Assembly (NCBI RefSeq): GCF_002127655.1
Contig: NZ_NEHB01000015.1
Span: 39,615 to 103,614 of the forward strand
Origin: Janthinobacterium sp. GW456P
GTDB taxonomy: Bacteria; Pseudomonadota; Gammaproteobacteria; Burkholderiales; Burkholderiaceae_D
DNA length: 64,000 nt
Direction of reading: 5' to 3'
Shown here piece by piece: positions 32,543 through 62,293 of the stretch (position 1 is the first letter of the stretch; each line of letters opens with the position of its first letter). The notes under the pieces are model-generated. The model was not told the origin of the DNA. It ran no database searches and saw only the letters and a program-made list of their open reading frames with translations. The translations under genes and the position numbers were made by a program.

Positions 32543-32690
32543 GAACGTCGGACAAAACCGTAGCGAGCGGAAGTGCGGCTCGGCGCCCCCGTTGCTCCGA
32601 GTAGCGGACCTGTGCTTGGCACGGGGCCGCCGAGGCAGTGAGCATCGCAGGCCGCAAATCGCGACGCGCAGTAGGTTTGGTTCGACGTTC
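32543..32690 (-). repeat. Stop-codon palindromic element, family 1 (long form), copy A
   Basis: 148 nt between cytochrome b561 and yceI. Outer arms GAACGTCG (32543-32550) and CGACGTTC (32683-32690) pair perfectly. Inside are the family marks CGTAGCGAGCGG and GCGACGCGCAGTAGGTTT, with a long GC-rich inner hairpin (CTCGGCGCCCC / GGGGCCGCCGAG). It ends one base before the b561 stop codon. Confidence 0.85.
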
Positions 32691-33215
32691 TTAGGGCAGC
32701 ATGCGTTTCAGCACCCCGTCGCGGTCGATGAACTGGTGCTTCAGCGCCGCCAGCACATGGGCGGCCACGGCGGCGGCCATTGTCATGTTCAGAACATAAT
32801 GAATCTCTTTTAAAAGTGGCTTAAGTTCCGGGTTCGGCGCCATGATGACGGGCAGCTGGAACAGGCCCAGGTAGACGACCGGCACGCCGGCGGCCAAGGT
32901 GTACAGGTAGCCGGAGATGGGTACGGCGAAGATCAGGACGTACAGCAGCACATGCATGGCGTCGGCGGCCTTCTTTTGCCAGGCAACCATGCTGGCCGGG
33001 TGCGGTGGCGGTACATTCGCCTTGCGCCACAGCAGGCGGATGGCGGCGATGGCCAGCACGGTCACGCCCAGCCATTTGTGCCACGAGAAATATTTAAGCT
33101 TGGTGGGCGTCAGGCCGGGAATGTCCGTCATGACCAGGCCCATGACGAAGGCGCTGATGATCAGCAGGGCGGTCAGCCAGTGCAGGATGATGGCGGTGGT
33201 GGTGTAGCGTTGCAT
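32691..33215 (-). CDS. Cytochrome b561
   Basis: 174 residues, four membrane helices, di-heme quinol-linked cytochrome (CybB/YceJ type) in the inner membrane. Candidate heme ligands His12 (LHW), His46 (WHKW), His138 (IHYVLN) and His152 (AAHVL) have the same order and near-identical spacing as the four CybB ligands. Adjacent YceI genes match the common yceJ-yceI pairing, which links electron transfer with a quinone-binding protein. Start 33215. Confidence 0.92.
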   Translation of the reverse strand: MQRYTTTAIILHWLTALLIISAFVMGLVMTDIPGLTPTKLKYFSWHKWLGVTVLAIAAIRLLWRKANVPPPHPASMVAWQKKAADAMHVLLYVLIFAVPISGYLYTLAAGVPVVYLGLFQLPVIMAPNPELKPLLKEIHYVLNMTMAAAVAAHVLAALKHQFIDRDGVLKRMLP

Positions 33216-47035: not shown

Positions 47036-47139
47036 GGGCACTCCGGGGAAGTCAGACTGATACTGCTGAGTGTACCGGTGATTTGTAGATCTTGCTGACT
47101 GGAAAAGTGTGCTGTTGGAGCGGTGCTATCCATACTTGC

Positions 47140-47259
47140 AACGCCTGACAAAACCGTAGCGAGCGGCAGTGATTTGCGGCCGAGAAGCGCAACCGTACTC
47201 TAGTACGGTGAGCATCGCCGGCCGCAAAGCGCGACGCGCAGTAGGTTTTGTCAGGTGTT
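47140..47259 (-). repeat. Stop-codon palindromic element, family 1 (short form), copy B
   Basis: 120 nt. AACGCCTGACAAAACC pairs with GGTTTTGTCAGGTGTT. Core: CGTAGCGAGCGGCAGTGATT, CCGTACTCTAGTACGG hairpin, GCGACGCGCAGTAGG. The 104-nt inner part (47147-47250) differs from the copy at 60988-61091 at one base only. Its end overlaps the first base of the M48 stop codon. Confidence 0.88.
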
Positions 47260-48272
47260 TACCGTTGTGCCGCGCGGATGCGCTCAACCCGCTCGGCGCT
47301 GGCCGGATGGCTCGACAGGTAGGACGTGCCTTCGTCCAGTTTGCCCAGGGCGACAAACACCTGCGCCAGGTGTTCCAGCGCGATGCCGTTCTGGCGCAGC
47401 ATGGCGATCGCGTAGTCGTCCGCTTCGCGCTCGACATCGCGCGAATACTTCAAGTCCAGCAGCAGCGGCGGCAAGGTCGCCACCACGGTCGAGACGTCGC
47501 CGAACAGCAGCGCCGCGCCGGCGCCCACGGCCGAGGTCTGGATCAGGCGGCGCGTCAGGTGGCGCTGCTGCAAATGGCCCAGTTCATGCGCCAGCACACC
47601 CATGATGGCGTCGTCGTCCGGCATCAGTTCCACCATTTCATCGGTCAGCACGATGTCGCCGGACGGCAGGGCGAAAGCGTTCGGGCCGATCTTGCTCTTG
47701 CGGAAAACGATGCGGTGCGTGGGCGCGCTGTCGCCGGGCGTGGCCAGGCGCGCGAACCGGGCGCGCAAGGCTTGCTGGCGCGCGCCATCGAGCTTGCTTG
47801 CCGCAAACACGTGGCCGTCGAGGAAATCGAGCACGCCCTGGCCCAGCTGGCGCTCGACGGACTGGGGAATCGCATACGCGACGCCCTTCGCCACCACGGG
47901 CAGCAGGTACTGATAGCTGAGCCACAGGGCCAGCACGGTGGCGACCGTGGCCAGCAGGGCGCCGCGCCAGCTTTGCTGCAGCCGCACCACCCAGCCGTCG
48001 CGGTGGCCCGTCTCATGCAGCACGTCGTTGAAGGCCGCCTGGTCGGCGATCTCCAGGTAGGCGCCGTCGGGAAAGCTGACCTTGCGCACGGCGTGGCTGC
48101 TGCGTTCGGACACGTGCAGCTCGCCCAGCGGGCAGCTGCGCTCGATATCGCCGGTCAGCATGGCCATGCCATCGCGCACGCTGAGCGTGACGTGGTACAG
48201 GCGCGAGGTCTGGCCGTCGAAATAGCGCGCGGGCACGGGGCCCGCACCCGGCGCGTGGTGATCGAGCGTCAT
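47259..48272 (-). CDS. M48 family metallopeptidase
   Basis: 337 residues. Zinc motif HELGH (MGVLAHELGHLQQRH) with third ligand in SRDVEREADDYA. One membrane segment at about residues 104-125 (ALLATVATVLALWLSYQYLL) anchors it, with a non-catalytic N-domain in front. Similar to HtpX/BepA-like and Oma1-type peptidases in quality control. Follows yjgN by one nt (TAG-C-ATG), which implies coupling. Confidence 0.9.
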   Translation of the reverse strand: MTLDHHAPGAGPVPARYFDGQTSRLYHVTLSVRDGMAMLTGDIERSCPLGELHVSERSSHAVRKVSFPDGAYLEIADQAAFNDVLHETGHRDGWVVRLQQSWRGALLATVATVLALWLSYQYLLPVVAKGVAYAIPQSVERQLGQGVLDFLDGHVFAASKLDGARQQALRARFARLATPGDSAPTHRIVFRKSKIGPNAFALPSGDIVLTDEMVELMPDDDAIMGVLAHELGHLQQRHLTRRLIQTSAVGAGAALLFGDVSTVVATLPPLLLDLKYSRDVEREADDYAIAMLRQNGIALEHLAQVFVALGKLDEGTSYLSSHPASAERVERIRAAQR

Positions 48273-48273
48273 G

Positions 48274-49326
48274 CTACAGCGACAGGTCGAAGTCCAGCAG
48301 ATCGACCATGCCTTCGCCCGTGGCAGAGACTTGCTCGCCGGTGGCGGCGACGAAGGCGTCCAGGCTGCCGTGCACCAGCATCGACGTCGCTTCCAGGCGG
48401 TACTTCAGCCAGCGCACCTGGGCGAAGGGCGAAAACAGGCCCAGGGTGACGACGATACCGAGCAGGTTGGTCAGCATGACGAAGGTGGTGCGGCCCCAGG
48501 TCAGCTGCGACTGGAACTGGTGCTGCTGCAGGCGCGTGTGGTTCCAGATGAGGTTCTGGATCATGGTCAGGAACAGCGGCAGCACGATAAAGGCCCACGC
48601 ATACAGGGCGGCCACCGCGCCGAAGATGCTGCCGGCCTTGGTGACATCGTTGGCGTTGCTGGCAAAGGTGGCGAAGACGCTGGCGAAGACGACAAAGATC
48701 AGGACCAGGAAACCGGCCAGCAGCAGGGCGAAGAACAGCAGATAGGTTTTGTAGAAGCTGCCAACCGAGGCGTCAAAGCTGAAATTGCTGTTGCCGAAGC
48801 GGCTTTGCGTATGCTGGAAGCGCTTCAGGCGCTGGTGCAGGAACGGCGTCATCAGGCCAGCCGTGAAGGTGTTCAGGATGGGCAGCCACAGGAAGTATTT
48901 GTAGGCTTCCCTGGCGCTGCCGTCGAAGCCGAAGCGGATGCCGCGGTAGCTGGTGTTGTAGAGCTTGAATTGCAGGCTTTTCCAGACCAGCCATGGCAGC
49001 ACGGCCATCATCAGCACGAGCATGATCAGGCCGACGATGGGCGAGATCTGGAAGGCGATGTTGTAGCCGCCGATCAATACCACGGCCGCGATGCGGCCCT
49101 TCAGGATGGCGACGGCATTGCCGTGGTATTCGAAGCTGCTGCCGGCCAGGTGGGTGCTGGAATAGAAATAGCGGTTGCGGCGCACCTTGGCCCAGGCGGA
49201 ATAAATGCCCAGGGTGACAATGCTCAGCAGCAGGTTGACGATCCAGATACGGAAGTATTCGCTGCCGGTGGCGCTGAAGGTAATGGCTTCACGCTTGGGC
49301 GTGGTGTTGTTGGTATCGAAATCCAC
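48274..49326 (-). CDS. YjgN family (DUF898) membrane protein
   Basis: 350 residues, six or more membrane helices. Two internal repeats of the DUF898 pattern: YFRIWIVNLLLSIVTLGIYSAWAKVRRNRYFYSSTHLAGSSFEYHG and the later TTFVMLTNLLGIVVTLGLFSPFAQVRWLKYRLEATSML. Function unknown. Cotranscribed with the M48 peptidase, a frequent pairing in betaproteobacteria, so a shared membrane-protein quality role is possible. Confidence 0.9.
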   Translation of the reverse strand: MDFDTNNTTPKREAITFSATGSEYFRIWIVNLLLSIVTLGIYSAWAKVRRNRYFYSSTHLAGSSFEYHGNAVAILKGRIAAVVLIGGYNIAFQISPIVGLIMLVLMMAVLPWLVWKSLQFKLYNTSYRGIRFGFDGSAREAYKYFLWLPILNTFTAGLMTPFLHQRLKRFQHTQSRFGNSNFSFDASVGSFYKTYLLFFALLLAGFLVLIFVVFASVFATFASNANDVTKAGSIFGAVAALYAWAFIVLPLFLTMIQNLIWNHTRLQQHQFQSQLTWGRTTFVMLTNLLGIVVTLGLFSPFAQVRWLKYRLEATSMLVHGSLDAFVAATGEQVSATGEGMVDLLDFDLSL

Positions 49327-49492
49327 AGGGGAGTTTCCTTACTTATTGGAAACAAAACAAGATAAGGGAAGATTGAAAAGTTATCAATTGAAAATAGTGT
49401 TTTTCGCAATTATTTTTGGTGTGCGGCCCCTGCCGCCGCGATTTTTCCGTCCCGGCTATACTGGGACTCAACCATTGCCAACGGAAATCGCC

Positions 49493-50164
49493 ATGATCGT
49501 CGTCCACCATCTGAACAATTCGCGCTCGCAGCGCGTGCTCTGGCTGCTTGAAGAACTGGGCCTCGACTACGAGGTCAAGCGCTATCAGCGCGACCCGACA
49601 ACCATGCTGGCGCCCGCCTCGTTGAAGGCCGTGCATCCGCTGGGCAAGTCGCCCGTGATCACGGACGGCGCCAACACCATCGCCGAATCGGGCGCCATCA
49701 TCGATTACCTGGTCGAGCGCTACGGCAATGGCCGTTTGATACCGGCGGCGGGCACGCCGGAAAAATTGCGCTGGACCTATTGGCTGCACTTCGCGGAAGG
49801 CTCGGCCATGCCGCCGCTGCTGATGAAGCTGGTGTTCGACAAGGTCGAATCGTCGCCGATGCCGTTTTTCGTGAAACCGATCGCGCGCGGCATCGCCGGC
49901 AAGGTCAAGAGCAGCTTCATCATGCCGAATATCAACAGCCAGCTGGCCTACATGGAAGCGGAACTCGAGAAAAGCAAATGGTTTGCCGGCAATGAATTCA
50001 CGGCGGCCGACATCCAGATGAGCTTTCCGCTGGAAGCGGCCGCCATGCGCGGCGGGCTCGACGAGCGCCTGCCGAAACTGACGGCCTTTTTGCAGCGCAT
50101 CCATGCGCGCCCGGCCTACCAGCGCGCCCTGGAACGCGGTGGGCCCTACGATTTCGCCAAATGA
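49493..50164 (+). CDS. Glutathione S-transferase
   Basis: 223 residues, canonical two-domain GST. MIVVHHLNNSRSQRVLWLLEELGLDYEVKRYQRDP and HPLGKSPVITDGANTIAESGAIIDYLVERYG give the GSH site; the C-domain contains NEFTAADIQMSFPLEAA. HHLNNSRSQR places it with the GstB/YfcF-like or yeast Gtt1-like group. Start at 49493 follows a weak ACGGAAAT. Substrate unknown. Confidence 0.9.
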   Translation: MIVVHHLNNSRSQRVLWLLEELGLDYEVKRYQRDPTTMLAPASLKAVHPLGKSPVITDGANTIAESGAIIDYLVERYGNGRLIPAAGTPEKLRWTYWLHFAEGSAMPPLLMKLVFDKVESSPMPFFVKPIARGIAGKVKSSFIMPNINSQLAYMEAELEKSKWFAGNEFTAADIQMSFPLEAAAMRGGLDERLPKLTAFLQRIHARPAYQRALERGGPYDFAK

Positions 50165-50235
50165 AGGGCATTCAAGACCGATGTGCGGGGAGCCATACGG
50201 TAAAATGATCGATTCAACCAGTATTTATTTACCGC

Positions 50236-51009
50236 ATGGCCAGACTCCTCGCTATCGACGGCTTGAATATCGTACGCCGCGTCTACGAAGCCAGTCCTGA
50301 ACCCGATTCCGACCTGAAGGCGGAGATCGCGCTGCGCCATGCGCTGTCGTCGTTTCGCACCCTCATCAACGACCACGAGCCGACGCACATCCTGCCGGCC
50401 TTCGACTTTGGCGGCCCCACCTGGCGCCACGCCCTGTATGCCGGTTATCGCGAGGGGCGCCAGCCCATGCCGCAGGTGCTGCGCGATGCCTTGCCCGGAT
50501 TCTATGCCACCCTGGCCAGCTTCGGCATGCACGTGGTCAGCATCCCCGAGGTCGAGGCCGACGACGTGATCGGCACGGCCGTCATGCGCTGGCTGCACGA
50601 GGGGCGCGGCGCGGCCGTCATCGCCACCACCGACAAGGATTTGCACGGTCTGATCGCCCACGGCGCGCTGGTGTGGGACCATTTCAAGGGTATCTGGCAC
50701 GACCACGCCTGGGTCGAGAAAAAGTTCGGCGTGCCGCCGGAACTGCTGCCCGACCTGCTGGCGCTGATGGGCGACGTCACCGACAGCATTCCCGGCGTGT
50801 CGAAGATCGGCCTGAAGACGGGCGCGAAACTGTTGCGCGCTTACGGCAATATCGACGCCGTGATGGCCGGCGCGGGCATTTTGCCCGGCGCACTCGGTGA
50901 AAGCCTGCGAAAAGAGCGGGAAATACTGTATCTTTCAAGAAAGTTAGTGGAACTCAAGACGGACGTGACGTTAGGCGTGACCTGGAACAAGCTGGCGTGG
51001 GAAAAGTAA
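50236..51009 (+). CDS. 5'-3' exonuclease, Xni/ExoIX-like
   Basis: 257 residues, the stand-alone PIN/5'-nuclease domain homologous to the N-domain of DNA polymerase I. Metal-binding acids in LLAIDGLNIVRR, EVEADDVIGT and TTDKDLHGL; the helix-hairpin-helix is MGDVTDSIPGVSKIGLKTGAKLL. ExoIX of E. coli is a flap endonuclease with K+ site; similar role likely in DNA repair. ATG 50236 with no strong ribosome site. Confidence 0.9.
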   Translation: MARLLAIDGLNIVRRVYEASPEPDSDLKAEIALRHALSSFRTLINDHEPTHILPAFDFGGPTWRHALYAGYREGRQPMPQVLRDALPGFYATLASFGMHVVSIPEVEADDVIGTAVMRWLHEGRGAAVIATTDKDLHGLIAHGALVWDHFKGIWHDHAWVEKKFGVPPELLPDLLALMGDVTDSIPGVSKIGLKTGAKLLRAYGNIDAVMAGAGILPGALGESLRKEREILYLSRKLVELKTDVTLGVTWNKLAWEK

Positions 51010-51047
51010 GACGCCAGGCAAGAACAATCAAGCAAGGGAAGTAAATC

Positions 51048-51458
51048 ATGATGTTAAAGACAGTCCTGATCGATAGCAGCGCCGTGGCGCGCGGCCTGCT
51101 GAACACGGTCCTGACCGATGGCGGCTACGATGTCTGCGGGCAGACGCATACCAGCGCGCTGGGGCTGGCGCTGCTGGTCAAGCACCATCCGCATTTCGTC
51201 TGCATCGCGCGCGAGCAGGTGGAAGACGGGACGAATATTGTGCAAACCATCCGCGCCCAGTATCCGAAGACGCTCATTTTCATGGTCTCGGGCGGCATCG
51301 ACGCCGCCTCGCTGCAGGCGGCCCACGCGATGGGCGTGTCGGGCTTCATCGTGAAACCGTTCATGGCCGACACGGTCCTGAAAACCGTGCGCAATACGGT
51401 GATCGCCATGGTGCGCAAGCAGCAGCAGGCGCTTGCCGCCGCTGCAAAAGACACCTGA
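51048..51458 (+). CDS. Atypical response-regulator receiver protein
   Basis: 136 residues, a single CheY-like domain without output domain. TVLIDSSAVARGLLNTVL, IFMVSGG and GFIVKPF (conserved Ser and Lys) fit the fold. The phospho-acceptor position, normally Asp in PDxVxxD, reads PHFVCIAR here, so Asp is replaced by Ala54; the first of the usual acidic pair is also lost (LID in place of VDD). It probably cannot be phosphorylated in the normal way. The last codons lie in a palindromic repeat. Confidence 0.85.
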   Translation: MMLKTVLIDSSAVARGLLNTVLTDGGYDVCGQTHTSALGLALLVKHHPHFVCIAREQVEDGTNIVQTIRAQYPKTLIFMVSGGIDAASLQAAHAMGVSGFIVKPFMADTVLKTVRNTVIAMVRKQQQALAAAAKDT

Positions 51459-51599
51459 TAAAATCTACTGCGCGTCGCGATTTGCGGCCGGCGATGCTCA
51501 CTGGCTCGGCGCCCCCGTACTAAAGTACAGTTGCGCTTCTCGGGCCAACGGGGGCGCCGAGCCTCACTGCCGCTCGCTACGATTTTTTCAGGCGTTGTT
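51451..51599 (+). repeat. Stop-codon palindromic element, family 1 (long form), copy C
   Basis: 149 nt. Begins ACACCTGATAAAATC, in which the TGA is the receiver-gene stop, and ends GATTTTTTCAGGCGTTGT, its imperfect complement. Carries CTACTGCGCGTCGCGATTTG and CACTGCCGCTCGCTACG. The inner hairpin has a perfect 15-bp stem (51503-51517 with 51549-51563). Confidence 0.88.
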
Positions 51600-51635
51600 A
51601 TTGAGTTGGATGAGTAAAAATTTACTTAACCAACC

Positions 51636-51665
51636 TAACTTCAGGCCAGCTAACTTCAGGCCAGC
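51636..51665. repeat. 15-bp tandem duplication at the mnmA stop
   Basis: TAACTTCAGGCCAGC occurs twice in direct succession. The second copy contains the mnmA stop codon. Confidence 0.8.
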
Positions 51666-52771
51666 CCCGTGGCGCTGGCGATGATGCCGCCACCGAGGCA
51701 CACGTCGCCGTCGTACAGCACGGCCGACTGGCCCGGCGTGACGGCCCATTGCGCTTGGTCGAACGCCATGCCGAAGTGCTCACTCCCCTCCGGCAGCAGC
51801 TGGCAAGCCACGTCGGCCTGGCGGTAGCGCGTCTTGGCGCTCAAGGGGCCTGCCTGCGGCGCCGTGCCGGCGACCCAGCTGGCCTGGTCGGCGCTCAAGG
51901 CCGGCGACAGCAGCCACGGGTGGTCGTGGCCCTGCACCACCCACAGGGTGTTGTTGGCGATATCCTTGCGCGCCACATACCAAGCGTCGCTGCTGCCGTC
52001 CGCGTTCTGGTACGACTTCACGCCGCCGATGCCGATGCCCTTGCGCTGGCCCAGGGTATAAAAACTCAATCCCACGTGTTCGCCCACCGTCTTGCCGTCG
52101 GCCGTCTTCATCGGGCCCGGCTTGTACGAGAGGTAGCGGTTCAGGAATTCGCGGAACGGGCGTTCGCCGATAAAACAGATACCCGTCGAATCCTTCTTCT
52201 GGGCGTTCGGCAGCGCCAGTTTTTCGGCGATCTGGCGCACTTGCGTCTTCGGGATTTCACCGAGCGGGAACAAGGTCTTGGACAACTGCGCCTGGTTCAG
52301 GCGGTGCAGGAAGTAGCTTTGGTCCTTGCTGGCGTCGACGGCTTTGAGCAGTTCATAACGGCCCGCGTCGGTCGGCGCCTGGCGCACGCGCGCATAATGG
52401 CCGGTGGCGATCAGGTCGGCGCCCAGGGTCATGGCGTGGTCAAGAAACGCCTTGAACTTGATTTCGGCATTGCACAGCACGTCCGGGTTCGGCGTGCGGC
52501 CGGCCTGGTACTCGCGCAGGAAATCGGCGAACACGCGGTCCTTGTATTCGGAGGCGAAATTGACGGCTTCGATATCGACGCCGATGACGTCGGCCACGCT
52601 GGCCGCGTCGATCCAGTCCTGGCGCGTGGAGCAGTATTCCGAATCGTCGTCATCTTCCCAGTTTTTCATGAACAGGCCGATGACTTCATAGCCTTGTTCC
52701 TTCAGCATCCATGCCGCGACCGAGGAATCGACCCCGCCCGACATGCCGATCACGACTTTCTTCTTGCTCAT
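51656..52771 (-). CDS. mnmA: tRNA-specific 2-thiouridylase MnmA
   Basis: 371 residues. Inserts sulfur at C2 of U34 in tRNA for Lys, Glu and Gln. PP-loop [11 protein letters not shown] near the N-terminus; catalytic cysteines in [12 protein letters not shown] and [10 protein letters not shown]; typical [17 protein letters not shown]. Preceded by a Nudix gene 42 nt away, the same nudJ-mnmA order as in E. coli. Confidence 0.97.
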
Positions 52772-52813
52772 CTTGCTTTCCAGTGTACTTTAATAATATG
52801 GCAATGCGTATTG

Positions 52814-53293
52814 CTATGCGCTATTGAAAACGGACGCATGCGTGTGCAGCAGGGCCAGCGGCGCCCGCCGGCCGGCCAGGTATTCGTCCACGCACTGCAG
52901 CACCAGCGGGCTGCGGTGGCGTTCCTGGCACGCCGCCAGCTCGTCGCGCGTCATCCACAGGGTACGGATGATGCCTTCGTCCAGCGGGCGATCATGCTCG
53001 GCGCCGGCGGTGCCGCAAAAGGTGAAGCGCAGATAGGTCACGTCCTCGCCCGTGCGCAGCGACTGGTAGCGCGACATGTACATGCCGACCAGTGCCGTGG
53101 GGATGAAATCGTAGGCCGCTTCTTCCAGCGTTTCGCGGATCACCGCCTGTTCCAGCGACTCGAACGGGTCGAGGTGGCCGGCCGGCTGGTTGAGCTTGAT
53201 GCCTTCGCTGGTCTCTTCTTCAATCAGTAAAAACAGGCCATCGCGCTCGACGATGGCGGCCACGGTGACAGAGGGTTTCCAGATTCTCGGCAT
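52814..53293 (-). CDS. nudJ: Nudix hydrolase, NudJ-like
   Basis: 159 residues. Nudix box GHLDPFESLEQAVIRETLEEAA (G-x5-E-x7-RE-x-x-EE; the terminal Gly is Ala, as in some NudJ proteins). VTVAAIVERDGLFLLIEEE and KLNQPAGHLD are typical of NudJ, which hydrolyses thiamine and nucleoside pyrophosphates. Symbol supported by motif and by adjacency to mnmA. Confidence 0.85.
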   Translation of the reverse strand: MPRIWKPSVTVAAIVERDGLFLLIEEETSEGIKLNQPAGHLDPFESLEQAVIRETLEEAAYDFIPTALVGMYMSRYQSLRTGEDVTYLRFTFCGTAGAEHDRPLDEGIIRTLWMTRDELAACQERHRSPLVLQCVDEYLAGRRAPLALLHTHASVFNSA

Positions 53294-53704
53294 GATTCCA
53301 TCCTTGAAAGAGCCGACATTTTATCTTGTTCTGCGCGCGCGGTTTGAAGCCGGCCTTTTGTTGCGCGGACATATTGATAAATGACAACGTTTTAGCAAAT
53401 AGCGGTGGGAGGTACTTACGTCTTTCCCGGGGAGCGCACTAGCATGGGGGCTGAGGCGGCAAGATGGCAGGAAGCGCCCGCTAATATAGGCTTTCCCTGT
53501 GGTCAAAACAAGCGCGCACGCTAGCTCGACTGTGGTGAGATTGACACACCTTTCCCACAATATGGGCGCCGCGCCGCATGGTGAAACAAATCATGGATGC
53601 GGACGAAATTAGTGTCGTACGACTAAAAGTTGCTGCTTCACAAACGTTTAACGCGCTGCTTTCCGTGTTAGATTCTAGTCAGTTTATCAATTAGCGGAGG
53701 CATC
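53294..53704. other. 411-nt intergenic region between nudJ and pntAA
   Basis: Divergent promoter region. A TTGACA at about 53552 has no matching -10. TTTAAC followed after 16 nt by TAGATT (near 53650-53675) is a weak pntAA promoter candidate. No gene, repeat or RNA recognised. Confidence 0.5.
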
Positions 53705-54820
53705 ATGAGGATAGGCATACCGGCCGAAACACGGCCTGGTGAAACCCGGGTGGCAGCCACGCCCGAGACAGTCAAGAAGCTGGCAGCCAAGCATCAGGTC
53801 GTCGTGCAGTCGGGAGCGGGCGTGCAAGCCTCGATTCCCGACGACGCGTATGCCGCCGCCGGCGCGCAGATCGGTACCGCCCAGGAAGCCTATGGCTGCG
53901 CCATCGTGCTCAAGGTGCGCGCCCCCGATGCCGAAGAACGGACCCTGATGGCCAGCGGCACGGTGCTGATCGGCATGTTGAACCCGTTTGACGCGGACAA
54001 TATCGCCGCCATGGCCGCGGCCGGCCTGTCCGCCTTCGCCCTGGAAGCCGTGCCGCGCATCACGCGCGCGCAGTCGATGGACGTGCTGTCGTCGCAGGCG
54101 AATATCGCCGGCTACAAGGCCGTGCTGGTGGCGGCGAATACCTACCAGCGCTTCATGCCCATGCTGATGACGGCGGCCGGCACCGTCAAGGCGGCCCGCG
54201 TGCTGATCATGGGCGTGGGCGTGGCAGGCTTGCAGGCGATCGCCACGGCCAAGCGCCTGGGCGCCGTCATCGAGGCGTCCGACGTGCGCCCGCCCGTCAA
54301 GGAACAAGTTGAATCGCTGGGCGCCAAGTTCCTCGACGTGCCCTTTCTGACCGACGAAGAAAAGGAAATCGCCAAGGGCGCGGGCGGCTATGCGCGCGCC
54401 ATGCCGGCCGACTGGATGCGGCGCCAGGCCGAACTCGTGCACGAACGGGCGAAGCTGGCCGACATCATCATCACCACGGCACTGATTCCCGGCCGCGCCG
54501 CGCCCGTGCTGATCTCGGAAGAAACGGTGAAGGCCATGAAGCCCGGTTCCGTCATTGTCGACCTGGCCGTCGAGCAGGGCGGCAACTGCCCGCTCTCGGA
54601 ACTGGGCAAGACGGTCGTCAAACACGGCGTCTACATCGTGGGCGAGCCGAACCTGGCGACCCTGGTGGCGGCCGATGCCTCGGCCCTGTATGCGCGCAAC
54701 GTGCTGGATTTTTTAAAGCTCATCATCGACAAGGACGATCAATTGCGGATCGACCGCGAGGATGAAATCATCAAGGCCAGCCTGGTTTGCGCGGATAGCG
54801 CGATCTTACGTCAATCATAG
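53705..54820 (+). CDS. pntAA: NAD(P) transhydrogenase subunit alpha, part 1
   Basis: 371 residues, soluble NAD(H)-binding domain I of the proton-translocating transhydrogenase. MRIGIPAETRPGETRVAATPETVKKL opens it; the Rossmann motif is GVGVAGLQAIATAKRLGA; RPPVKEQVESLGAKF and TALIPGRAAPVLI follow. GCGGAGGCATC precedes the ATG. In this three-gene form alpha is split in two, unlike E. coli pntA. Confidence 0.96.
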   Translation: MRIGIPAETRPGETRVAATPETVKKLAAKHQVVVQSGAGVQASIPDDAYAAAGAQIGTAQEAYGCAIVLKVRAPDAEERTLMASGTVLIGMLNPFDADNIAAMAAAGLSAFALEAVPRITRAQSMDVLSSQANIAGYKAVLVAANTYQRFMPMLMTAAGTVKAARVLIMGVGVAGLQAIATAKRLGAVIEASDVRPPVKEQVESLGAKFLDVPFLTDEEKEIAKGAGGYARAMPADWMRRQAELVHERAKLADIIITTALIPGRAAPVLISEETVKAMKPGSVIVDLAVEQGGNCPLSELGKTVVKHGVYIVGEPNLATLVAADASALYARNVLDFLKLIIDKDDQLRIDREDEIIKASLVCADSAILRQS

Positions 54821-54835
54821 AGCGCCGGAGAGAAT

Positions 54836-55150
54836 ATGGAAATCAGTCACACCATCACCAACCTGATCATCTTCGTGTTGGCCATTTATGTCGGCTACCA
54901 CGTCGTCTGGACCGTCACGCCGGCGCTGCATACGCCGCTGATGGCCGTCACCAATGCCATTTCCGCCATCATCATCGTCGGCGCCATGCTGGCGGCCGGC
55001 CTGACCGATGGCCCGCTGGCGCAAGTGGCCGGCACCCTGGCCGTGGCGCTGGCCGCCGTCAATGTATTCGGCGGCTTCCTCGTCACGCAGCGCATGCTCG
55101 AGATGTTCCGTAAAAAAGAACCGAAGGCCAAGCAAGGAGCAAAAGAATGA
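54836..55150 (+). CDS. pntAB: NAD(P) transhydrogenase subunit alpha, part 2
   Basis: 104 residues, the short membrane part of domain II: three hydrophobic helices ([63 protein letters not shown]) and a basic tail. GGAGAG precedes the ATG. The stop overlaps the pntB start (ATGA). Confidence 0.95.
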
Positions 55151-56613
55151 GTCACGCCATGAGCTTCGTCACCATGAACCTGGTGACGATGATGTACCTG
55201 ATCGCCTCGGTGTGCTTCATCCAGGCCTTGAAAGGCCTGTCGTCGCCATCGACGGCGCGCCGCGGCAATGCCTTCGGCATGAGCGGCATGGCCATCGCCG
55301 CTGTCACCACCGTGGCGCTGATCCTGAAACTGAAGGAACAGCAGACGGGCGGCATGGGCCTGACCCTTGTCATCATCGGCATCGTCACGGGTGGCGCCAT
55401 CGGCGCCTACCTGGCGAAAACCGTGGAAATGACGAAGATGCCGGAACTGGTGGCGGCCATGCACTCGCTGATCGGCCTGGCGGCCGTCTGCATCGCCGTG
55501 GCGGCCGTGTCGGAACCATGGGCCTTCAATATCGCGAAACACGGCGAGGCGCTGCCCATCGGCAACCGCTTCGAGCTGTTCATCGGCACCTTTGTCGGCG
55601 CCATCACGTTCTCCGGTTCGGTGATCGCCTTCGGCAAGCTGTCGGGCAAATACAAGTTCCGCCTGTTCCAGGGCGCGCCCGTCAGCTTCAAGGGCCAGCA
55701 CATGCTCAACCTGGTACTGGCGCTGGTGATGGTGGGCCTGGGCCTGGCGTTCTGCTTCGCCGATGGCGTGCAGCCGGCCTGGACGCCGTTCGTCATCATG
55801 ACCCTGATCGCCTTCGCGCTGGGCGTGCTGATCATCATCCCCATCGGCGGCGCCGACATGCCGGTGGTGGTGTCGATGCTCAACAGCTACTCGGGCTGGG
55901 CCGCGGCCGGCATCGGCTTTTCGCTGAATAACTCGATGCTGATCATCGCCGGCTCATTGGTCGGTTCTTCCGGCGCGATCCTGTCGTACATCATGTGCAA
56001 GGCCATGAACCGCTCGTTCTTCAACGTCATCCTCGGCGGCTTCGGCGGCGATGCGCCGGCCGCTGGCGCGGCGGGCGCGCAGGAACAGCGTCCGGTCAAA
56101 TCAGGTTCGGCCGACGATGCCGCCTTTATCATGAGCAATGCGGAAACCGTCATCATCGTGCCCGGCTACGGTCTGGCCGTGGCGCGCGCGCAGCATTCGC
56201 TGAAAGAACTGGTGGAAAAGCTCACGCACAAGGGCGTCACCGTCAAGTATGCGATCCACCCCGTGGCGGGGCGCATGCCGGGCCACATGAACGTGCTGCT
56301 GGCCGAGGCGGAAGTGCCGTACGACCAGGTCTTCGAGATGGAAGACATCAACGGCGAATTCGGCCAGACGGACGTGGTGCTGGTGCTGGGCGCGAACGAC
56401 GTCGTCAACCCGGCGGCGAAAGATCCGAAATCGCCGATCGCCGGCATGCCGATCCTCGAAGCCTATAAGGCCAAAAGCATCATCGTCAACAAGCGCTCGA
56501 TGGCGTCCGGCTATGCGGGCCTGGACAACGACCTGTTCTACCAGCCGAACACGATGATGGTGTTTGGCGACGCCAAGAAGGTGATCGAGGATATGCTCAA
56601 GGCAGTTGAGTAA
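55147..56613 (+). CDS. pntB: NAD(P) transhydrogenase subunit beta
   Basis: 488 residues. About eight or nine membrane helices form the proton channel, then the NADP(H)-binding domain III (from about residue 310): [83 protein letters not shown]. Makes NADPH from NADH using the proton gradient. Overlaps pntAB by 4 nt. A short tandem duplication sits at its stop codon. Confidence 0.97.
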
Positions 56614-56630
56614 GGCAGTTGAGTAAGGCA
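56599..56630. repeat. 13-bp tandem duplication at the pntB stop
   Basis: The unit TAAGGCAGTTGAG (with preceding AAGGCAGTTGAG) is repeated, so two TAA codons follow each other 13 nt apart, the first being the pntB stop. Confidence 0.75.
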
Positions 56631-56651
56631 GTGCCTTAGTCAACTGAAGAT

Positions 56652-56676
56652 GGCCCGCCTTGCGCGGGCCGTTTTT
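56652..56676 (+). terminator. Intrinsic terminator of the pnt operon
   Basis: GGCCCGC/GCGGGCC stem with 5-nt loop followed by GTTTTT. The T-run overlaps the stop codon of the convergent GGDEF gene. Confidence 0.85.
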
Positions 56677-57628
56677 ATTGGGCGGCCGCTGCGGCGACGA
56701 CTTTATTGCGTCCCTGGTGCTTGGCCGCGTACAGGGCCTTGTCGGCATCCGACATGGCCGCGTCCAGGCTGGCGCCGGCCGTCAGGGAGGCCACGCCGAT
56801 GCTGATGGTCACCTGCAGTTCGCCGCCATCGGGCAAAGGCGTGATGGCGGCGGCCACGGCGGCGCGGATGCGTTCGGCCACCTTGTGCGCCTGCCGCAGG
56901 CTGGCGTCGGGGAACAGCAGGCCGAACTCCTCGCCGCCGAGACGGGCCGCCACGTCGGTGATGCGTCCCGTGTCGCGCAGCGCCTGCGCCACCGTGCGCA
57001 GCACGGCGTCGCCCACGGCATGGCCGTAGCGGTCGTTGATCTTCTTGAAATGGTCGAGGTCGGCCACGCCCACGGTCAGGGCGGCGCCGCTGCGTGCCGC
57101 GCGCGCCATCGCCTGCTCGGCTTGCGCTTCATAGGCGCGCCGGTTGGGCAGCGACGTCAGCGCATCGTGCAGCGCCTGCTGTTCCAGCTGCGCCAGCAGG
57201 CTGGCGTTTTTTGCCGCCAGTTCGCGCCGTTCGCGCACGTCGAGCAAGAAGGCGCCGAAATAGCGGATGCCGTCGACCACGCCCAGGTCCAGCGCCTTCA
57301 TTTCGATGGGAATCATTTGCGCATCGCGGTGGCGGATGGCGAATTCGCGTATCTTGCCCAGCACGCTGGAGGTGCGCGAACTGCGGATGTAATTGATCAC
57401 GTGGTTGTCGTGCTGCGCGCCGACGGCGTCGGGCAGCAGGCCGTTCAGGGTCTGGCCCAGCAATTCCCCGCTGGCATAGCCCGACAGCGCCTGCATGGCG
57501 CCATTGATATAGCGGATGCGGCAATGTTCATCGATGATGATGACGGCGTCGAGGGCGTCTTCCAGCAGGCGGGAAAAGAGCACTTCGGGAAGAGCGGCAG
57601 GCGGTGCTGCGGGCAATGCATCTGTCAT
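56675..57628 (-). CDS. PAS-GGDEF diguanylate cyclase
   Basis: 317 residues, cytosolic. PAS domain at about residues 18-135 (AVIIIDEHCRIRYINGAMQALSGYASGELLGQTL), short coiled coil, then GGDEF domain (about 150-310) with DALTSLPNRRAY, DLDHFKKINDRYGHAVGD and the active site GGEEF. An inhibitory I-site RxxD (RITD) lies five residues before it, so product feedback is expected. Makes c-di-GMP in response to whatever the PAS domain senses. No neighbour suggests the signal. Confidence 0.93.
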   Translation of the reverse strand: MTDALPAAPPAALPEVLFSRLLEDALDAVIIIDEHCRIRYINGAMQALSGYASGELLGQTLNGLLPDAVGAQHDNHVINYIRSSRTSSVLGKIREFAIRHRDAQMIPIEMKALDLGVVDGIRYFGAFLLDVRERRELAAKNASLLAQLEQQALHDALTSLPNRRAYEAQAEQAMARAARSGAALTVGVADLDHFKKINDRYGHAVGDAVLRTVAQALRDTGRITDVAARLGGEEFGLLFPDASLRQAHKVAERIRAAVAAAITPLPDGGELQVTISIGVASLTAGASLDAAMSDADKALYAAKHQGRNKVVAAAAAQ

Positions 57629-57743
57629 GGAACGGTCGCCAAAAACCAGGTGACAGCCATTGTCGCATCCGCAGGCCGTTTACTCCATGCCGGAGACGTT
57701 CCGTGTTTCTTTTTCGCCCGTGCCCTTTACTTATTGTTAAGGT

Positions 57744-58886
57744 TCAGCGGCGGCCGTACATCATCAGGGTGGCCAGGCTTTTGCGCGCGGGGCTGAAAAC
57801 GTCCAGCAAGCCCAGCGACAGGCCCAGCAAGCCTTGCGTGGGGGCGCTGCCCGTGAAGATGCGCGCCATGGTGTCGGTGACGCGCACGGTCAGGCCCCGG
57901 TCGGCCTGGCGCAGGCTGGCGTAGTGCTCCAGCCCGGCCGGGCTGCTGTCCTGCGCCAGCACGCGGGCCAGCACGGCGGCGTCGCGCAAGCCCAGGTTCA
58001 GGCCCTGTCCCGCCACCGGATGCAGGGTTTGCGCCGCATTGCCGATGGCGACCGTGCGCGCCGTGCCGTTCGCCTGCGCGTTCAGGCCCAGCGGATAGGC
58101 CAGGCGCGCCGTGGTGTGGGTAAAGCGTCCCAGGCGGCTGCCGAAAGCGGCGCCCAGGCGCGCCAGGAAGGCTGCCTCGTCCAGCGCCAGCAATTGCTCC
58201 GCGCGCGTGGGCGGCACGCACCACACCAGCGCGTAGCCGTCGTCCTGCGGCAGCAGGGCCAGCGGACCTTCGTCGGTGAAGCGCTCGTACGCGCGGTGCG
58301 CGATGGGGGCGCTCGTGCGCACATGGGCGATGATGGCGCTTTGGCCATAATCGCGGCTGACGGCGCGTTCCGGCTGCTGGCCGAACAGGCCGCCCTCGGC
58401 CTGCACCAGCAGACCGGCGCGCAAGCTCGACGCGGCGCCCGCCTGGTCGATCTGCACGGACACGCCGGCGGCGTTTTCCTCACTGCCCGTCACCAGGGCC
58501 GGGCGCAGGCTGGCCACGCCCAGGCGCTCGCACACGTCGGCCAGCGCGCTGACGACGGCGCCGTAACGCGCCACATAGCCGAGCGCCTCGACGCCATGTT
58601 CGCCGCGGTCCATCAGGCTGCGCCCGAACTGGCCGCGGCGCGACACGTGGATCTGGTGGATAGGCGTCGCCTCCACGGGCCAGGCGCCCGCTTCCTCGAG
58701 TATCTGGCGGCTGCCGTGCGACAGGGCGATGGTGCGCGGGTCGCGCCGGGCTTGTTCGAGGGATTTGGCGTCGAGCAGGGCGATGCCGGCGGCGCGGCTG
58801 CCCCGCTGCACCAGCAGGGCGGCCAGGGCCATGCCGACGGGGCCGGCGCCGCAGATGGCGAGATCGAAAGTGGATGGTGTATGCAT
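57744..58886 (-). CDS. ubiH: Ubiquinone biosynthesis FAD-monooxygenase UbiH-like
   Basis: 380 residues, class A flavoprotein hydroxylase. FAD motif DLAICGAGPVGMALAALL; RTIALSHGSRQILEEAG; and the second FAD region GNAAQTLHPVAGQGLNLGLRDA. The GNAAQ variant (against GDAAH in UbiF/UbiI) is that of UbiH, which hydroxylates C6 of the ubiquinone ring. Downstream of pepP by 9 nt, the pepP-ubiH order known from other proteobacteria. Confidence 0.88.
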   Translation of the reverse strand: MHTPSTFDLAICGAGPVGMALAALLVQRGSRAAGIALLDAKSLEQARRDPRTIALSHGSRQILEEAGAWPVEATPIHQIHVSRRGQFGRSLMDRGEHGVEALGYVARYGAVVSALADVCERLGVASLRPALVTGSEENAAGVSVQIDQAGAASSLRAGLLVQAEGGLFGQQPERAVSRDYGQSAIIAHVRTSAPIAHRAYERFTDEGPLALLPQDDGYALVWCVPPTRAEQLLALDEAAFLARLGAAFGSRLGRFTHTTARLAYPLGLNAQANGTARTVAIGNAAQTLHPVAGQGLNLGLRDAAVLARVLAQDSSPAGLEHYASLRQADRGLTVRVTDTMARIFTGSAPTQGLLGLSLGLLDVFSPARKSLATLMMYGRR

Positions 58887-58895
58887 GCGGCGGGG

Positions 58896-60221
58896 TTAAT
58901 CCTGTGACATCAGTTGTTCGATTTCAGCGATGCTCTTGGGCGCCGTGCTGAAGACTTCATGGCCTTGCGGCGTGACCAGCACATCGTCCTCGATGCGGAT
59001 GCCCGTATGCCAGAACTGCTCCGGCACGCCGGCGCCGGGACGCACGTAGATGCCCGGTTCCACCGTCAGCACCATGCCCGGTGCCAAAGCGCGCCAAGGC
59101 TTGCCGGGCGCATCCGTGTCGCGGTAGGCGCCCACGTCGTGCACGTCCATGCCCAGCCAGTGGCTGGTGCCGTGCATGTAGAAGGGCATATAGGCCTTGT
59201 CGGCGATGACGTCCTGCGCGCTGCCGCTTTTTTGCCGGTCCAGCAAACCCAGGTCCAGCATGCCCTGCGCCAGCACTTGCACGGCCGCCTCGTGGATGGC
59301 GCTGTGCGGCAAGCCGGGGCGAACCATGTCCAGCGCCGCCTGCTGCGCCGCCAGCACCAGCTCGTACAGCGCCCGCTGCGGGCCGCTGAAACGGCCGTTG
59401 ACGGGCCAGGTGCGCGTGATGTCGGAGGCATAGCCATCGAGTTCGCAGCCGGCGTCGATCAAGACCAGCTCGCCTTCTTTCAATACCGCGTTGTTGGCGC
59501 TGTAGTGCAGGATGCAGGCGTTGCCGCCGCCCGCGACGATGGAGGAATAGGCGGGAAACTGCGCGCCGCTGCGGCGAAATTCGTACAGCAGCTCCGCTTC
59601 GAGCGCATATTCGTGCATGCCGGGCCGCGTGGCGCGCATGGCGCGTACGTGGGCGGCGCTGGAAATGGCGGCCGCGCGGCGCATCAGCTGCTGTTCCTGC
59701 GTGTCTTTCAGCAGGCGCATGGCGTCAAGCATGCCACTGATGTCATGCGCGATGGCGGGCGCCGTGACGCCGCTGCGGGCCTTTTGCCGCACGTTGTGCC
59801 GCCAGAGCTTCACCTGCGCATCGAGGCTGCCGCCCAGCGCATAGTAGATGGCGGGAGAGTCGGCCAGCAGGCGCGTCATTTCCACGTCGAGTTCCTCGAT
59901 GGGGAAGGCGGCGTCAAAACCGAAGCTGGCGCGCGCCGCCTCGGGACCGTGGCGGAATCCGTCCCAGATTTCGCGCTCCGTGTTCTTTGCGCGGCAAAAC
60001 AGGATGGCGCGCGCGGGCGCCGTGGCGCTGGCGGCCACCAGGGCCATGGTGCTGTCGGGTTCCGCAAAGCCGCTCAGGTAGTAGAAATAGCTGTCGTGGC
60101 GGTACGGATAATCGCAATCGCTGTTGCGCGGCACTTCGGGCGCCGTGGCGATGACGGCCACGCTGCCCGGCAGCATCTGCGCCAGCAGTGCGGCGCGGCG
60201 TGCCGCGTAATTGGCCATCAT
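58896..60221 (-). CDS. pepP: Xaa-Pro aminopeptidase (aminopeptidase P)
   Basis: 441 residues, pita-bread metallopeptidase M24B. Dinuclear Mn ligands: LIDAGCELDGYASDITRTW (two Asp), HGTSHWLGMDVHDVG (His), LTVEPGIYV (Glu), GIRIEDDVLVT (Glu). N-terminal AMP_N domain DCDYPYRHDSYFYYLSGF. Starts at ATGATG (60221/60218) overlapping the murU stop; the longer frame to 60290 lies inside murU. Releases N-terminal residues preceding proline. Confidence 0.95.
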   Translation of the reverse strand: MMANYAARRAALLAQMLPGSVAVIATAPEVPRNSDCDYPYRHDSYFYYLSGFAEPDSTMALVAASATAPARAILFCRAKNTEREIWDGFRHGPEAARASFGFDAAFPIEELDVEMTRLLADSPAIYYALGGSLDAQVKLWRHNVRQKARSGVTAPAIAHDISGMLDAMRLLKDTQEQQLMRRAAAISSAAHVRAMRATRPGMHEYALEAELLYEFRRSGAQFPAYSSIVAGGGNACILHYSANNAVLKEGELVLIDAGCELDGYASDITRTWPVNGRFSGPQRALYELVLAAQQAALDMVRPGLPHSAIHEAAVQVLAQGMLDLGLLDRQKSGSAQDVIADKAYMPFYMHGTSHWLGMDVHDVGAYRDTDAPGKPWRALAPGMVLTVEPGIYVRPGAGVPEQFWHTGIRIEDDVLVTPQGHEVFSTAPKSIAEIEQLMSQD

Positions 60222-60937
60222 GTTGCGCTGGCCTTGGCCGTGACGCCATTGAGCACGTCGAGTTGTGCCGGCGTGCCCACATTGGTCCACTCGCCGGTAT
60301 AGACTTCGCCGCCCACGCGGCCCTGGTCCGCGTACCGGCGCAGCAAATCGCCCAGTTTGGCGTGGCTGCCGGGCGTGATGCCGTCGAACATTTCAGGACG
60401 GTACACGCCGATGTTGGCGAAGGTCCACTTGGTGTCGTCCGTATTGTTGATCGAGAACAAGGTCAGGCCGAAGTCGCCCTTCGGGTGGAAGTCCGGGTTG
60501 GGCACCAGGTAGGTCCAGGCGATGTCGCGCTGATCGGCCGGATACGGCGTACCCAGCACATCCTTGTCGGCCAGCACGTCGAGCACTTGCTTGAAATCAA
60601 AGTAAGGGCAATAGATGTCGCCGGAAATGGCGAGGAACGGTTCTTCGCCCAGCAAGTGGCGCGCCTGGGCGATGCCGCCCGCCGTTTCCAGCGGCGTCGT
60701 TTCCGGCGAATACGCGATGCGCGCGCCGTACGCGCTGCCGTCGCCCAGGGTTGCCTCGATCTGCTGGCCCAGGTGCGAATGGTTGATGACGATGTCCGTG
60801 ATGCCGGCGCGCACCAGGTTCAGCACATGCCAGACGATCAGCGGGCGGCCGCGCACTTTCAGCAGCGGTTTGGGACAGGTATCGGTAAGCGGACGCATCC
60901 GTTCACCGCGGCCTGCGGCAAAGATCATGGCTTTCAT
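60218..60937 (-). CDS. murU: N-acetylmuramate-1-phosphate uridylyltransferase
   Basis: 239 residues, nucleotidyltransferase fold: MKAMIFAAGRGERMRPLTDTCPKPLLKVRGRPLI, AISGDIY and ANIGVYRPEMF. In Pseudomonas MurU makes UDP-MurNAc from MurNAc-1-P in the peptidoglycan-recycling bypass that avoids the fosfomycin target MurA. Assignment rests on similarity and on the kinase AmgK just upstream. Its stop overlaps the pepP start. Confidence 0.88.
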   Translation of the reverse strand: MKAMIFAAGRGERMRPLTDTCPKPLLKVRGRPLIVWHVLNLVRAGITDIVINHSHLGQQIEATLGDGSAYGARIAYSPETTPLETAGGIAQARHLLGEEPFLAISGDIYCPYFDFKQVLDVLADKDVLGTPYPADQRDIAWTYLVPNPDFHPKGDFGLTLFSINNTDDTKWTFANIGVYRPEMFDGITPGSHAKLGDLLRRYADQGRVGGEVYTGEWTNVGTPAQLDVLNGVTAKASAT

Positions 60938-60980
60938 GGGTAGTCTTTTCTGATTTGTTCAGTAATTTTTCTGTGGTTAC

Positions 60981-61100
60981 GACATCGGACAAAACCGTAG
61001 CGAGCGGCAGTGATTTGTGGCCGAGAAGCGCAACCGTACTCTAGTACGGTGAGCATCGCCGGCCGCAAAGCGCGACGCGCAGTAGGTTTTGGCCGGTGTC
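60981..61100 (-). repeat. Stop-codon palindromic element, family 1 (short form), copy D
   Basis: 120 nt between amgK and murU, beginning one base after the amgK stop codon. Ends GACATCGGACAAAACC and GGTTTTGGCCGGTGTC pair, with G-U pairs. The inner 104 nt are identical to the copy at 47147-47250 except one C/T difference, while the outermost arms differ. Confidence 0.88.
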
Positions 61101-61101
61101 A

Positions 61102-62169
61102 TCAGAATGTGTAGCCGACCTGGGGCGTTTTGTTCTCCAGCGCATCGAGCAAGCGCACCAGCGGCTTGAGTTCCGTGTAGCGGTTGGCCGTCTTGCGCAC
61201 GTAGTCGAGCACGGTTGGCAAATCGCCCATGTACAGATCCTTGCCATCGCGGTAATTCAGGCGCGAGAACAGGCCGAGGATTTTCAGGTGGCGCTGCAGG
61301 GCCGTGAATTCGAAATCGCGGTAGAAGGCGTCGATGTCGGGATTCACCGGCAAGCCCAGCTGCTTGGCGCGCTGCCAGTAGCGGATCACCCAGTCGAGCA
61401 CGAGTTCCTCGTCCCACTGGATATACGCGTCGCGCAGCAGCGAGGCGATGTCGTAGGTGACGGGACCGAAGACGGCGTCCTGGAAGTCGAGGATGCCGGG
61501 ATTGGGGAGCGAGCCATCGTTGATGTGCATCAAATTACGCGAATGGTAGTCGCGGTGCATGAATACTTGTTGCTGCGACAAGATATTCGCCGTGATGGCT
61601 TCGAAGACCTTGTCCAGCTGGGTTTGTTGCACGTCCGTCAAGGTGGCGCCCAGGTGTTTGCCGATAAACCATTCCGGGAACAGATTCATTTCGCGCAGGA
61701 TGAAGGCGCGGTCGAATTCGGGCAGCACGTCGGGGGCGCTGGCCAGCTGGATTTTCATCAACGATTCCAGTGCTTCGGCGTACAGCACGCTGGCGTTGTC
61801 GTGGTTCAGGGCGTCCAGATATGTAGTCGTGCCCAGGTCGGACAGCAGCAAAAAGCCCTGCTCCAGGTCTTGCGCGATGATGTCGGGCACGGACACGCCG
61901 GCGCCTTTCAACAAGCCGGCCACCTTGACAAAGGCGGGCACGTTTTCGCGCTCGGGCGGCGCATCCATGGCGATCAGTGTCTTTCCTGGCAATGTTGTGT
62001 TGCTTGGCAGCACATCGAGACGGTAGTAGCGGCGGAAGCTGGCATCGCTGGAAGCGGGGCGGGCGGATTCGGGCGCGACGAGGTTCAGCGGGGCCAACCA
62101 GGCTTTCAACAGGGGCAGGCGAGCGTCGGCGGAGGCCGGCGCGGCAGGGGAATTGGGGGAGAATGACAT
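61102..62169 (-). CDS. amgK: N-acetylmuramate/N-acetylglucosamine kinase AmgK-like
   Basis: 355 residues from ATG 62169; a longer frame reaches 62220 but enters the group II intron end. Aminoglycoside-phosphotransferase fold: SSDASFRRYYRLDVL (nucleotide loop), catalytic loop FMHRDYHSRNLM and metal motif LDFQDAVFGPVTYDIASLLRDAY. AmgK phosphorylates MurNAc at C1 for MurU. No Shine-Dalgarno is evident. amgK and murU are 164 nt apart with a palindromic element between. Confidence 0.88.
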   Translation of the reverse strand: MSFSPNSPAAPASADARLPLLKAWLAPLNLVAPESARPASSDASFRRYYRLDVLPSNTTLPGKTLIAMDAPPERENVPAFVKVAGLLKGAGVSVPDIIAQDLEQGFLLLSDLGTTTYLDALNHDNASVLYAEALESLMKIQLASAPDVLPEFDRAFILREMNLFPEWFIGKHLGATLTDVQQTQLDKVFEAITANILSQQQVFMHRDYHSRNLMHINDGSLPNPGILDFQDAVFGPVTYDIASLLRDAYIQWDEELVLDWVIRYWQRAKQLGLPVNPDIDAFYRDFEFTALQRHLKILGLFSRLNYRDGKDLYMGDLPTVLDYVRKTANRYTELKPLVRLLDALENKTPQVGYTF

Positions 62170-62242
62170 TAAGCGGCCTGTGGAATCGGGTTGATGGTGC
62201 GGAGGGTAGGAGAACCCCATTGCTGGAAGCTCTCCCCCCTAA

Positions 62243-62276: not shown

Positions 62277-62293
62277 AAGCATAATAAAAGTCC

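Follow-up and report, generated by a model that had tools for sequence, protein, structure and literature searches.

Several groups of bacterial palindromic repeats are the natural points of comparison for the element described here. YPAL/RU-2 of Yersinia is described as a long palindromic, non-autonomous element of 168 bp with target duplications of 3 to 26 bp, which is found at sites that are filled in some genomes and empty in others, and which has targets at or beside regions of dyad symmetry (PMC2229807). Repetitive extragenic palindromic (REP) sequences are 20–40 bp units with GTAG ends that can provide a TAG stop codon (PMC3733652). In E. coli, an earlier study placed 260 of 496 REPs within 15 nt of a stop codon, and a more recent one 446 of 4,072 (PMC12306157); the associated rayt genes are flanked by two inverted REPs (PMC2817692). 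The Correia/NEMIS and ERIC repeats are hairpins of ≈100–160 bp, similar to miniature inverted-repeat transposable elements (MITEs), that are cotranscribed with genes, and Correia/NEMIS occurs in long and short forms that differ by an internal segment (PMC2229807). Here, we describe a family of long palindromic elements in Janthinobacterium sp. GW456P, represented by four copies in a 64,000 nt stretch of DNA (contig NZ_NEHB01000015.1, positions 39,615–103,614), hereafter referred to as the window. The elements sit immediately behind the stop codons of genes, nearly always in the same orientation.

The initial annotation of the window had listed four such copies, and all four were found at the positions given there (Table 1). 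The window lies within contig C7 of a genome of 6.27 Mb in 78 contigs. A nucleotide search of this genome with one copy gave at least 47 matches, and a covariance model built from 32 copies gave at least 133 matches at E values up to 1, of which those above 50 bits were kept. The family thus extends over the whole genome with 96 copies, four of them in the window. This number is a lower bound, because 150 of the 6,987 first-look candidates were scored. The copies range from 102 to 147 nt in length, mostly 118–134 nt, with 63 copies of exactly 120 nt. The 37 rows below the cut comprised 30 opposite-strand readings of near-palindromic copies and seven shortened forms.

Gene prediction relied on an in-house codon-usage finder, which had been trained on the window, rather than on a standard caller, and some of the 23 copies scored as not at a stop may follow missed genes. 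On the left side of the element (the CTACTGCGCG side), a gene was identified for 95 copies, and in 79 of these the left end faces the stop of that gene. In 73 of the 96 copies, the left end lies between −11 and +8 nt from the gene stop, most commonly at +1 nt (25 copies). The right end falls within this range in three copies; overall, a stop lies opposite it in 47 of the 96 copies, 1 to 497 nt away. Altogether, 54 of the 96 copies start 0–8 nt past a stop, compared to 1,442 of 43,547 intergenic points (3.3%; binomial probability 9e-54), where the background was drawn from the fetched regions only and insertion was taken as uniform over intergenic DNA. Measured against this background, both the lock onto stop codons and its one-sidedness are far beyond chance. 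The preference reported from the four window copies thus survived a genome-wide count that might have shown none (73 left ends against three right ends), which supports the view of palindromic elements that have spread recently and are bound to stop codons in a single orientation. The stops used by the 73 copies are TAA (34), TAG (21) and TGA (18), while those of all predicted genes in the same regions are TAA (155), TGA (107) and TAG (54). By gene context, 46 of the 96 copies have a gene in the sense direction on both sides, 33 are located between convergent genes, and 13 have a gene in the antisense direction on both sides.

In the window itself, the distances from the stop to the first position of the model are +1, −1, −9 and +1 nt for copies 1–4. 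In the copy at 51450, the stop is located within the outer stem. Between the copies at 47140 and 60981, there are 8 differences over 120 positions and a single one over their best 104, in agreement with the 103 of 104 shared inner bases noted previously.

When one copy was folded together with its edges, it formed a single imperfect hairpin of 125 nt (−64.8 kcal/mol, z = −7.8), in which a number of mismatches are conserved. Alignment of the four window copies on the gene-sense strand gave the consensus core CTACTGCGCG ... GATGCTCAC ... GCTTCTC ... CGCTCGCTACG. GTAG is present at both ends of the core; it forms the start of CGTAGCGAGCGG and recurs in GCAGTAGG. The initial annotation had taken these shared GTAG-type ends as the limits of the element; the ends are indeed shared, but the element is bigger, since a 16-nt inverted repeat beyond them, with the consensus RACRCCTGACMAAACC ... 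GGTTTTGTCAGGYGTY, had been left out. Each of the 16 positions of this outer stem forms a Watson–Crick pair in 53 to 90 of the 96 copies, providing the element with terminal inverted repeats.

The covariation count left out the 33 copies of differing length and covered every copy that is exactly 120 nt long (63). Placed on the same fold, 87.3% of cells in these copies were paired, a percentage that is flattered because the fold was derived from one of the copies and the copies are related. Double-sided changes occurred in 31 of the 46 pairs, including all 15 outer-stem pairs. There were 254 double-changed pair cells, compared to 74.3 in shuffled alignments (none of 500 reached the observed number) and at most 63 when the partner was slid. 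A subset of 55 of the 63 copies, with eight excluded by eye, gave 88.0% paired and 218 double-changed cells, compared to 60.9. The telling measure is this contrast in double changes and not the percentage paired. Covariation of this kind need not imply a working RNA.

The M48 peptidase gene that precedes copy 2 has protein orthologs with 82–94% identity in 18 Janthinobacterium records, and 24 of the 46 loci found with the protein were read. The site is filled in four of the 18 Janthinobacterium loci, each time directly behind the same stop. It is empty in the other 14, most of which show a short GC-rich hairpin instead (by eye), and none of six loci from other genera carries the element. A further 17 sites were compared, S1–S7 in up to 14 members of the genus and T1–T10 in three. 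At S1, T2, T3, T9 and T10, the element is present in its own genome and in none of the compared genomes, and at S3, S5, S6 and S7 it occurs in differing, patchy sets of two or three compared genomes. In nearly all occupied orthologs, no more than a few nucleotides separate the stop from the start of the element; the exceptions are T5 in genome G030, where the copy is truncated, and T8 in G017 and G007, where it is shifted or has an internal deletion. What follows the element at S1, S5 and T10 corresponds to the native 3′ region of the empty species, so the element was inserted there without replacing anything. At T1, all three compared species are filled at the same place, two of them with another subfamily, so that either insertion took place more than once or another copy converted the site. 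At T2, T4 and T6, an empty ortholog uses another stop position, which blurs the comparison. Occupied and empty orthologous sites thus coexist in the genus, as in palindromic MITEs of the YPAL type. In species that lack the element at S3 (G015, G003, G007 and G019) or S6 (G015 and G003), a different repeat of the GTCGGATTACGCG...GCGCTAATCCGACCTACG type was seen behind the same stops.

The arms of the hairpin vary in some copies. The long forms (32544–32689, 51450–51596 and other copies of 127–134 nt) carry GGCTCGGCGCCCCC-type inserts on the left, the right or both arms, and look as if arms had been extended or copied singly. The extra inner hairpin of the copy annotated at 51451 is a perfect stem, as originally described, but of 16 bp rather than 15 bp. 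At site S5 in G030 (L316, the ortholog of C24:75450), the right arm is replaced by the reverse complement of the element's own left arm, which looks like template switching, or copying across the hairpin, at replication.

The family is not confined to this strain. Among the matches listed, 34 of 37 genomes of the genus have a match at 1e-6; G014, G028 and G035 have none at this threshold among the matches listed, and two of these three genomes are incomplete. G015 has at least 59 element matches and one match to the Y1_Tnp transposase domain. In a sample of the family, at least 161 of 294 genomes, representing at least 29 of 44 genera with the genus itself included, have a match. Thirty loci from 12 other genera, chosen among the matching genomes, show the same plan by eye; across these genera the outer stem and the core flanks vary by lineage, yet remain complementary. 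In another genus, about eight related elements are arranged in tandem at locus L292 (G305:C2:124900-127600). In the lineages of G192 and G176, direct repeats of at least 5 nt, such as CTTACG, CATCAG and TGTTGG, flank the element in 11 of 24 loci, compared to 0.62 in shuffles (0 of 2,000 reached this number).

The repeated copies, the single architecture, the position behind stops in a fixed orientation, the differing occupancy of sites and an excess of TNA triplets at the junctions lead us to regard the family as mobile and non-autonomous. Of the 23 copies off gene stops, 8 have the triplet TNA at −4..−2 on the left side, and 38 of all 96 copies have it at +1..+3 on the right side; the background in both cases is 4.5%. 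It is therefore probable, if by no means certain, that these are short, non-autonomous, MITE-like palindromic elements that spread as one long imperfect hairpin and enter TNA sites, for the most part stop codons, with a single orientation. The conserved mismatched core of the hairpin would be recognized by a transposase provided in trans. Insertion would take place at TNA sites and, in coding-dense DNA, would be tolerated mainly at TAA and TGA stops. The orientation might be set by some feature of the 3′ end of the gene, such as transcription or translation termination or local structure, and transcription of the hairpin, once placed, would make it the first part of the 3′ untranslated region. 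So stable a structure, only a few nucleotides from the stop, would likely influence mRNA decay or translation, as has been described for REPs and ERIC.

Several observations weigh against this interpretation. In the Janthinobacterium genome, direct repeats of at least 5 nt within 8 nt of the ends, as expected from target duplication, were found in 2 of 96 copies, compared to 1.07 in shuffles. When duplication was examined by register, z was ≈1 at the two expected registers, and the top value of 3.4 fell at an unrelated one. TNA is found at −4..−2 in only 20 of the 73 copies in the gene-stop class, and it also occurs at −1 in 8 of the 23 copies off stops, where the element's own conserved A contributes. 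In the 12 copies with TNA on both sides, the two triplets are identical in 7, compared to 3.7 in shuffles, a weak effect that 83 of 2,000 shuffles reach; their identity is suggestive only. Furthermore, the TNA test was framed after the junctions had been inspected, and a preference for TNA alone leaves the ratio of 73 left to 3 right ends unexplained. The repeats of 5–6 nt in the G192 and G176 lineages do not fit a 3-nt TNA duplication. In these lineages, a predicted stop is no more than 2 nt away, on one side or the other, in 7 of 24 loci, with the gene finder applied to other genera without retraining; this lock is weak, and a strict one-way lock has therefore so far been shown for Janthinobacterium only. 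Finally, no autonomous partner with the same ends (allowing 1–2 mismatches) was found among the matches listed of 112 places in the genome, and none was seen in two related genomes. Inverted flank repeats outside the outer stem were considered and rejected (highest z 2.6). One bare right element end was seen at C38:316 (L383, G000:C38:1-331), after what resembles, by eye, the end of an IS110-family transposase gene; the element there was apparently split by an insertion sequence.

The strongest competing explanation is that insertion is widespread, and that the pattern arises from the retention of sense copies directly behind stops, where the transcript hairpin would be useful for 3′-end protection, partial termination or damping of translation. 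The orientation bias of 73 to 3 and the strong covariation speak for such selection, and by column counts the T-run GGTTTT on the sense strand varies less than the mirrored run in the other arm. There are also precedents: REPs located <16 nt from a stop reduce translation (PMC12306157), and ERIC has an effect on transcript stability for which its orientation is crucial (PMC2229807). However, in a comparison of 21 orthologous copies, most one-sided changes (26 of 32) disrupt a pair, and the 11 pair-keeping double changes all come from site T1, ten of them relative to copies of another subfamily. Pairing is therefore more visibly maintained among spreading copies than in place, where it does not appear to be guarded. 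The 8 of 23 copies off gene stops that start behind TNA point to a sequence target, and five of the seven shortened forms are still behind a stop triplet (by eye). Such relics resemble ordinary small hairpins. We consider selection a serious but distinctly less probable explanation than targeted insertion of a mobile element. Gene termination might also itself be the address: a single-stranded or extruded hairpin would enter DNA exposed at the ends of translation and transcription, with the stop and the direction of transcription deciding the site and orientation. We regard this variant as unlikely, if worth bearing in mind.

It appears more doubtful still that the elements act as intrinsic transcription terminators and have spread by taking the place of native ones. 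A stem is followed by GGTTTT, 33 of the 96 copies lie between convergent genes, and at the M48 site the short GC-rich hairpin of the empty species is in many cases followed by a T-rich stretch (by eye). On the other hand, the run of Ts is only four long and sits inside the outer stem. Because 46 of the 96 copies are located between two sense-direction genes, it is unlikely that each copy is a strong terminator; 13 more lie between two antisense-direction genes. On the right side, 13 of 49 start codons are within 50 nt of the element, including that of the nucleotidyltransferase gene in the window (43 nt). A scan of 46900–61400 with a terminator consensus found none at the three copies covered, although a scan that allows loops of at most 8 cannot detect a hairpin of this length as a whole. 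Terminator-like sites are retained to the right of 24 of 73 stop-class copies, a frequency similar to that behind control stops (46 of 191), and to the right of 4 of 23 other copies. On these raw counts, preferential placement in front of native terminators was rejected as well, and the mean folding energy of the right flank was no stronger than that behind control stops.

The initial annotation had suggested an origin as REPs or bacterial interspersed mosaic elements (BIMEs), moved by a REP-associated tyrosine transposase (RAYT) of the Y1 type. A unit of this kind would be a simple hairpin headed by GTAG (or GTGG). The GTAG at the start of CGTAGCGAGCGG and in GCAGTAGG, the palindromic structure and the presence of about a hundred copies recall such a system, and at least one Y1_Tnp match was found in all 23 members of the genus searched. 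The Janthinobacterium genome has three Y1_Tnp matches; the element model gave no match up to an E value of 1 within ≈1.5 kb on either side of any of them, and none is a rayt gene flanked by two inverted element copies. The exact end motifs are absent from these loci, one of which (L031) contains a 9-nt motif of a divergent subfamily once. The one candidate of the three that was scanned, an open frame of 242 aa (224 aa searched), scored 50.1 bits, below the cut-off of 80 for the NCBIfam REP-associated transposase; by frame length alone (242–278 aa), it has counterparts in 23 members of the genus. The unit is also far longer than a REP, mostly 118–134 compared to 20–40 nt, and its relatives have matching flank repeats; IS200/IS605-type Y1 transposition is not known to produce flanking repeats of 5 nt or more. 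With no element near the Y1 loci, a score below the cut-off for the one candidate scanned and a unit of the wrong length, the association with RAYT was rejected, and a REP/BIME origin is the least likely of the explanations considered. The other two loci, L031 and L032, are Y1 transposase-like and have inverted repeats of 36–37 nt containing GGGTCAGGTCCG; the L032 frame holds a stop.

The features of the four window copies are collected in Table 1. A search of Rfam 15 gave no covariance-model match at these copies up to an E value of 5. Directly upstream of the aminoglycoside phosphotransferase (APH)-family gene at copy 4, the window contains a group II intron (62201–63997, − strand) with a domain V match to RF00029 (65 bits), and the open reading frame beside domain V has RVT_1, RVT_N, GIIM and HNH domains.

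Table 1. Element copies in the window, with adjoining genes and structural parts. Genome coordinates refer to the Janthinobacterium genome (G000).
Feature	Position in window	Strand	Support	Genome coordinates
Copy 1, long form, 3′ of b561 gene	32544..32689	-	83.2 bits (model R1)	G000:C7:72158-72303
b561 gene at copy 1		-	Pfam Ni_hydr_CYTB	
Stop TAA of b561 gene, 1 nt from copy 1	32691..32693	-		
Copy 2, short form, 3′ of peptidase M48 gene	47140..47259	-	148.5 bits; gene from Pfam	G000:C7:86754-86873
Stop TAA of M48 gene, 1 nt common to copy 2	47259..47261	-		
Copy 2, outer stem, 3′ arm, pairs with 47244-47259	47140..47155	-	Fold and covariation over 63 copies	
Copy 2, outer stem, 5′ arm	47244..47259	-	Fold and covariation over 63 copies	
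Copy 3, long form, 3′ of receiver-domain gene	51450..51596	+	97.3 bits; gene from Pfam	G000:C7:91064-91210
Stop TGA of receiver gene, within outer stem of copy 3	51456..51458	+		
Copy 3, extra inner hairpin, 5′ arm, perfect 16 bp with 51548-51563	51503..51518	+		
Copy 3, extra inner hairpin, 3′ arm	51548..51563	+		
Copy 4, short form, flanked by APH-family gene (amgK of the initial annotation) and nucleotidyltransferase gene	60981..61100	-	145.6 bits; genes from Pfam	G000:C7:100595-100714
Nucleotidyltransferase gene flanking copy 4	60218..60937		Pfam	
Stop TGA of APH-family gene, 1 nt from copy 4	61102..61104	-		

A precise, directional stop codon address would let DNA insert behind genes without breaking them, and an element with such an address would offer a way to study how transposition recognizes where genes end. 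Since sites are filled in some sister species and empty in others, both the targeting and the effect on expression are directly testable. In the titles and abstract openings of literature on repeats in Oxalobacteraceae, Janthinobacterium and betaproteobacteria, and in the titles listed by searches with pieces of the element, we found no description of it. There is some resemblance to the attC sites of integrons, which are single-strand hairpins with conserved unpaired bases located directly behind the stop of a gene; compared to attC as it is generally understood, the Janthinobacterium element differs in having a conserved core sequence over its whole length. Correia/NEMIS and ERIC, compared by description and not by sequence, differ in their TA termini, and no stop codon address is mentioned for them in the part of the published account used here (PMC2229807). 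With REPs and BIMEs, the element shares its palindromic structure, extragenic location, many copies, GTAG end and frequent proximity to stops, but at 102–147 nt it was matched as a single long hairpin, and no rayt gene flanked by copies was found. YPAL/RU-2, again compared by description rather than by sequence, is likewise a long non-autonomous palindrome with filled and empty sites; the same part of that account mentions no one-way stop codon lock for it (PMC2229807). In its behavior, the Janthinobacterium element is thus nearest to YPAL and the REPs, and what sets it apart from both is its length, a core with conserved mismatches, a distribution through one bacterial family and a one-way address behind the stop codon.

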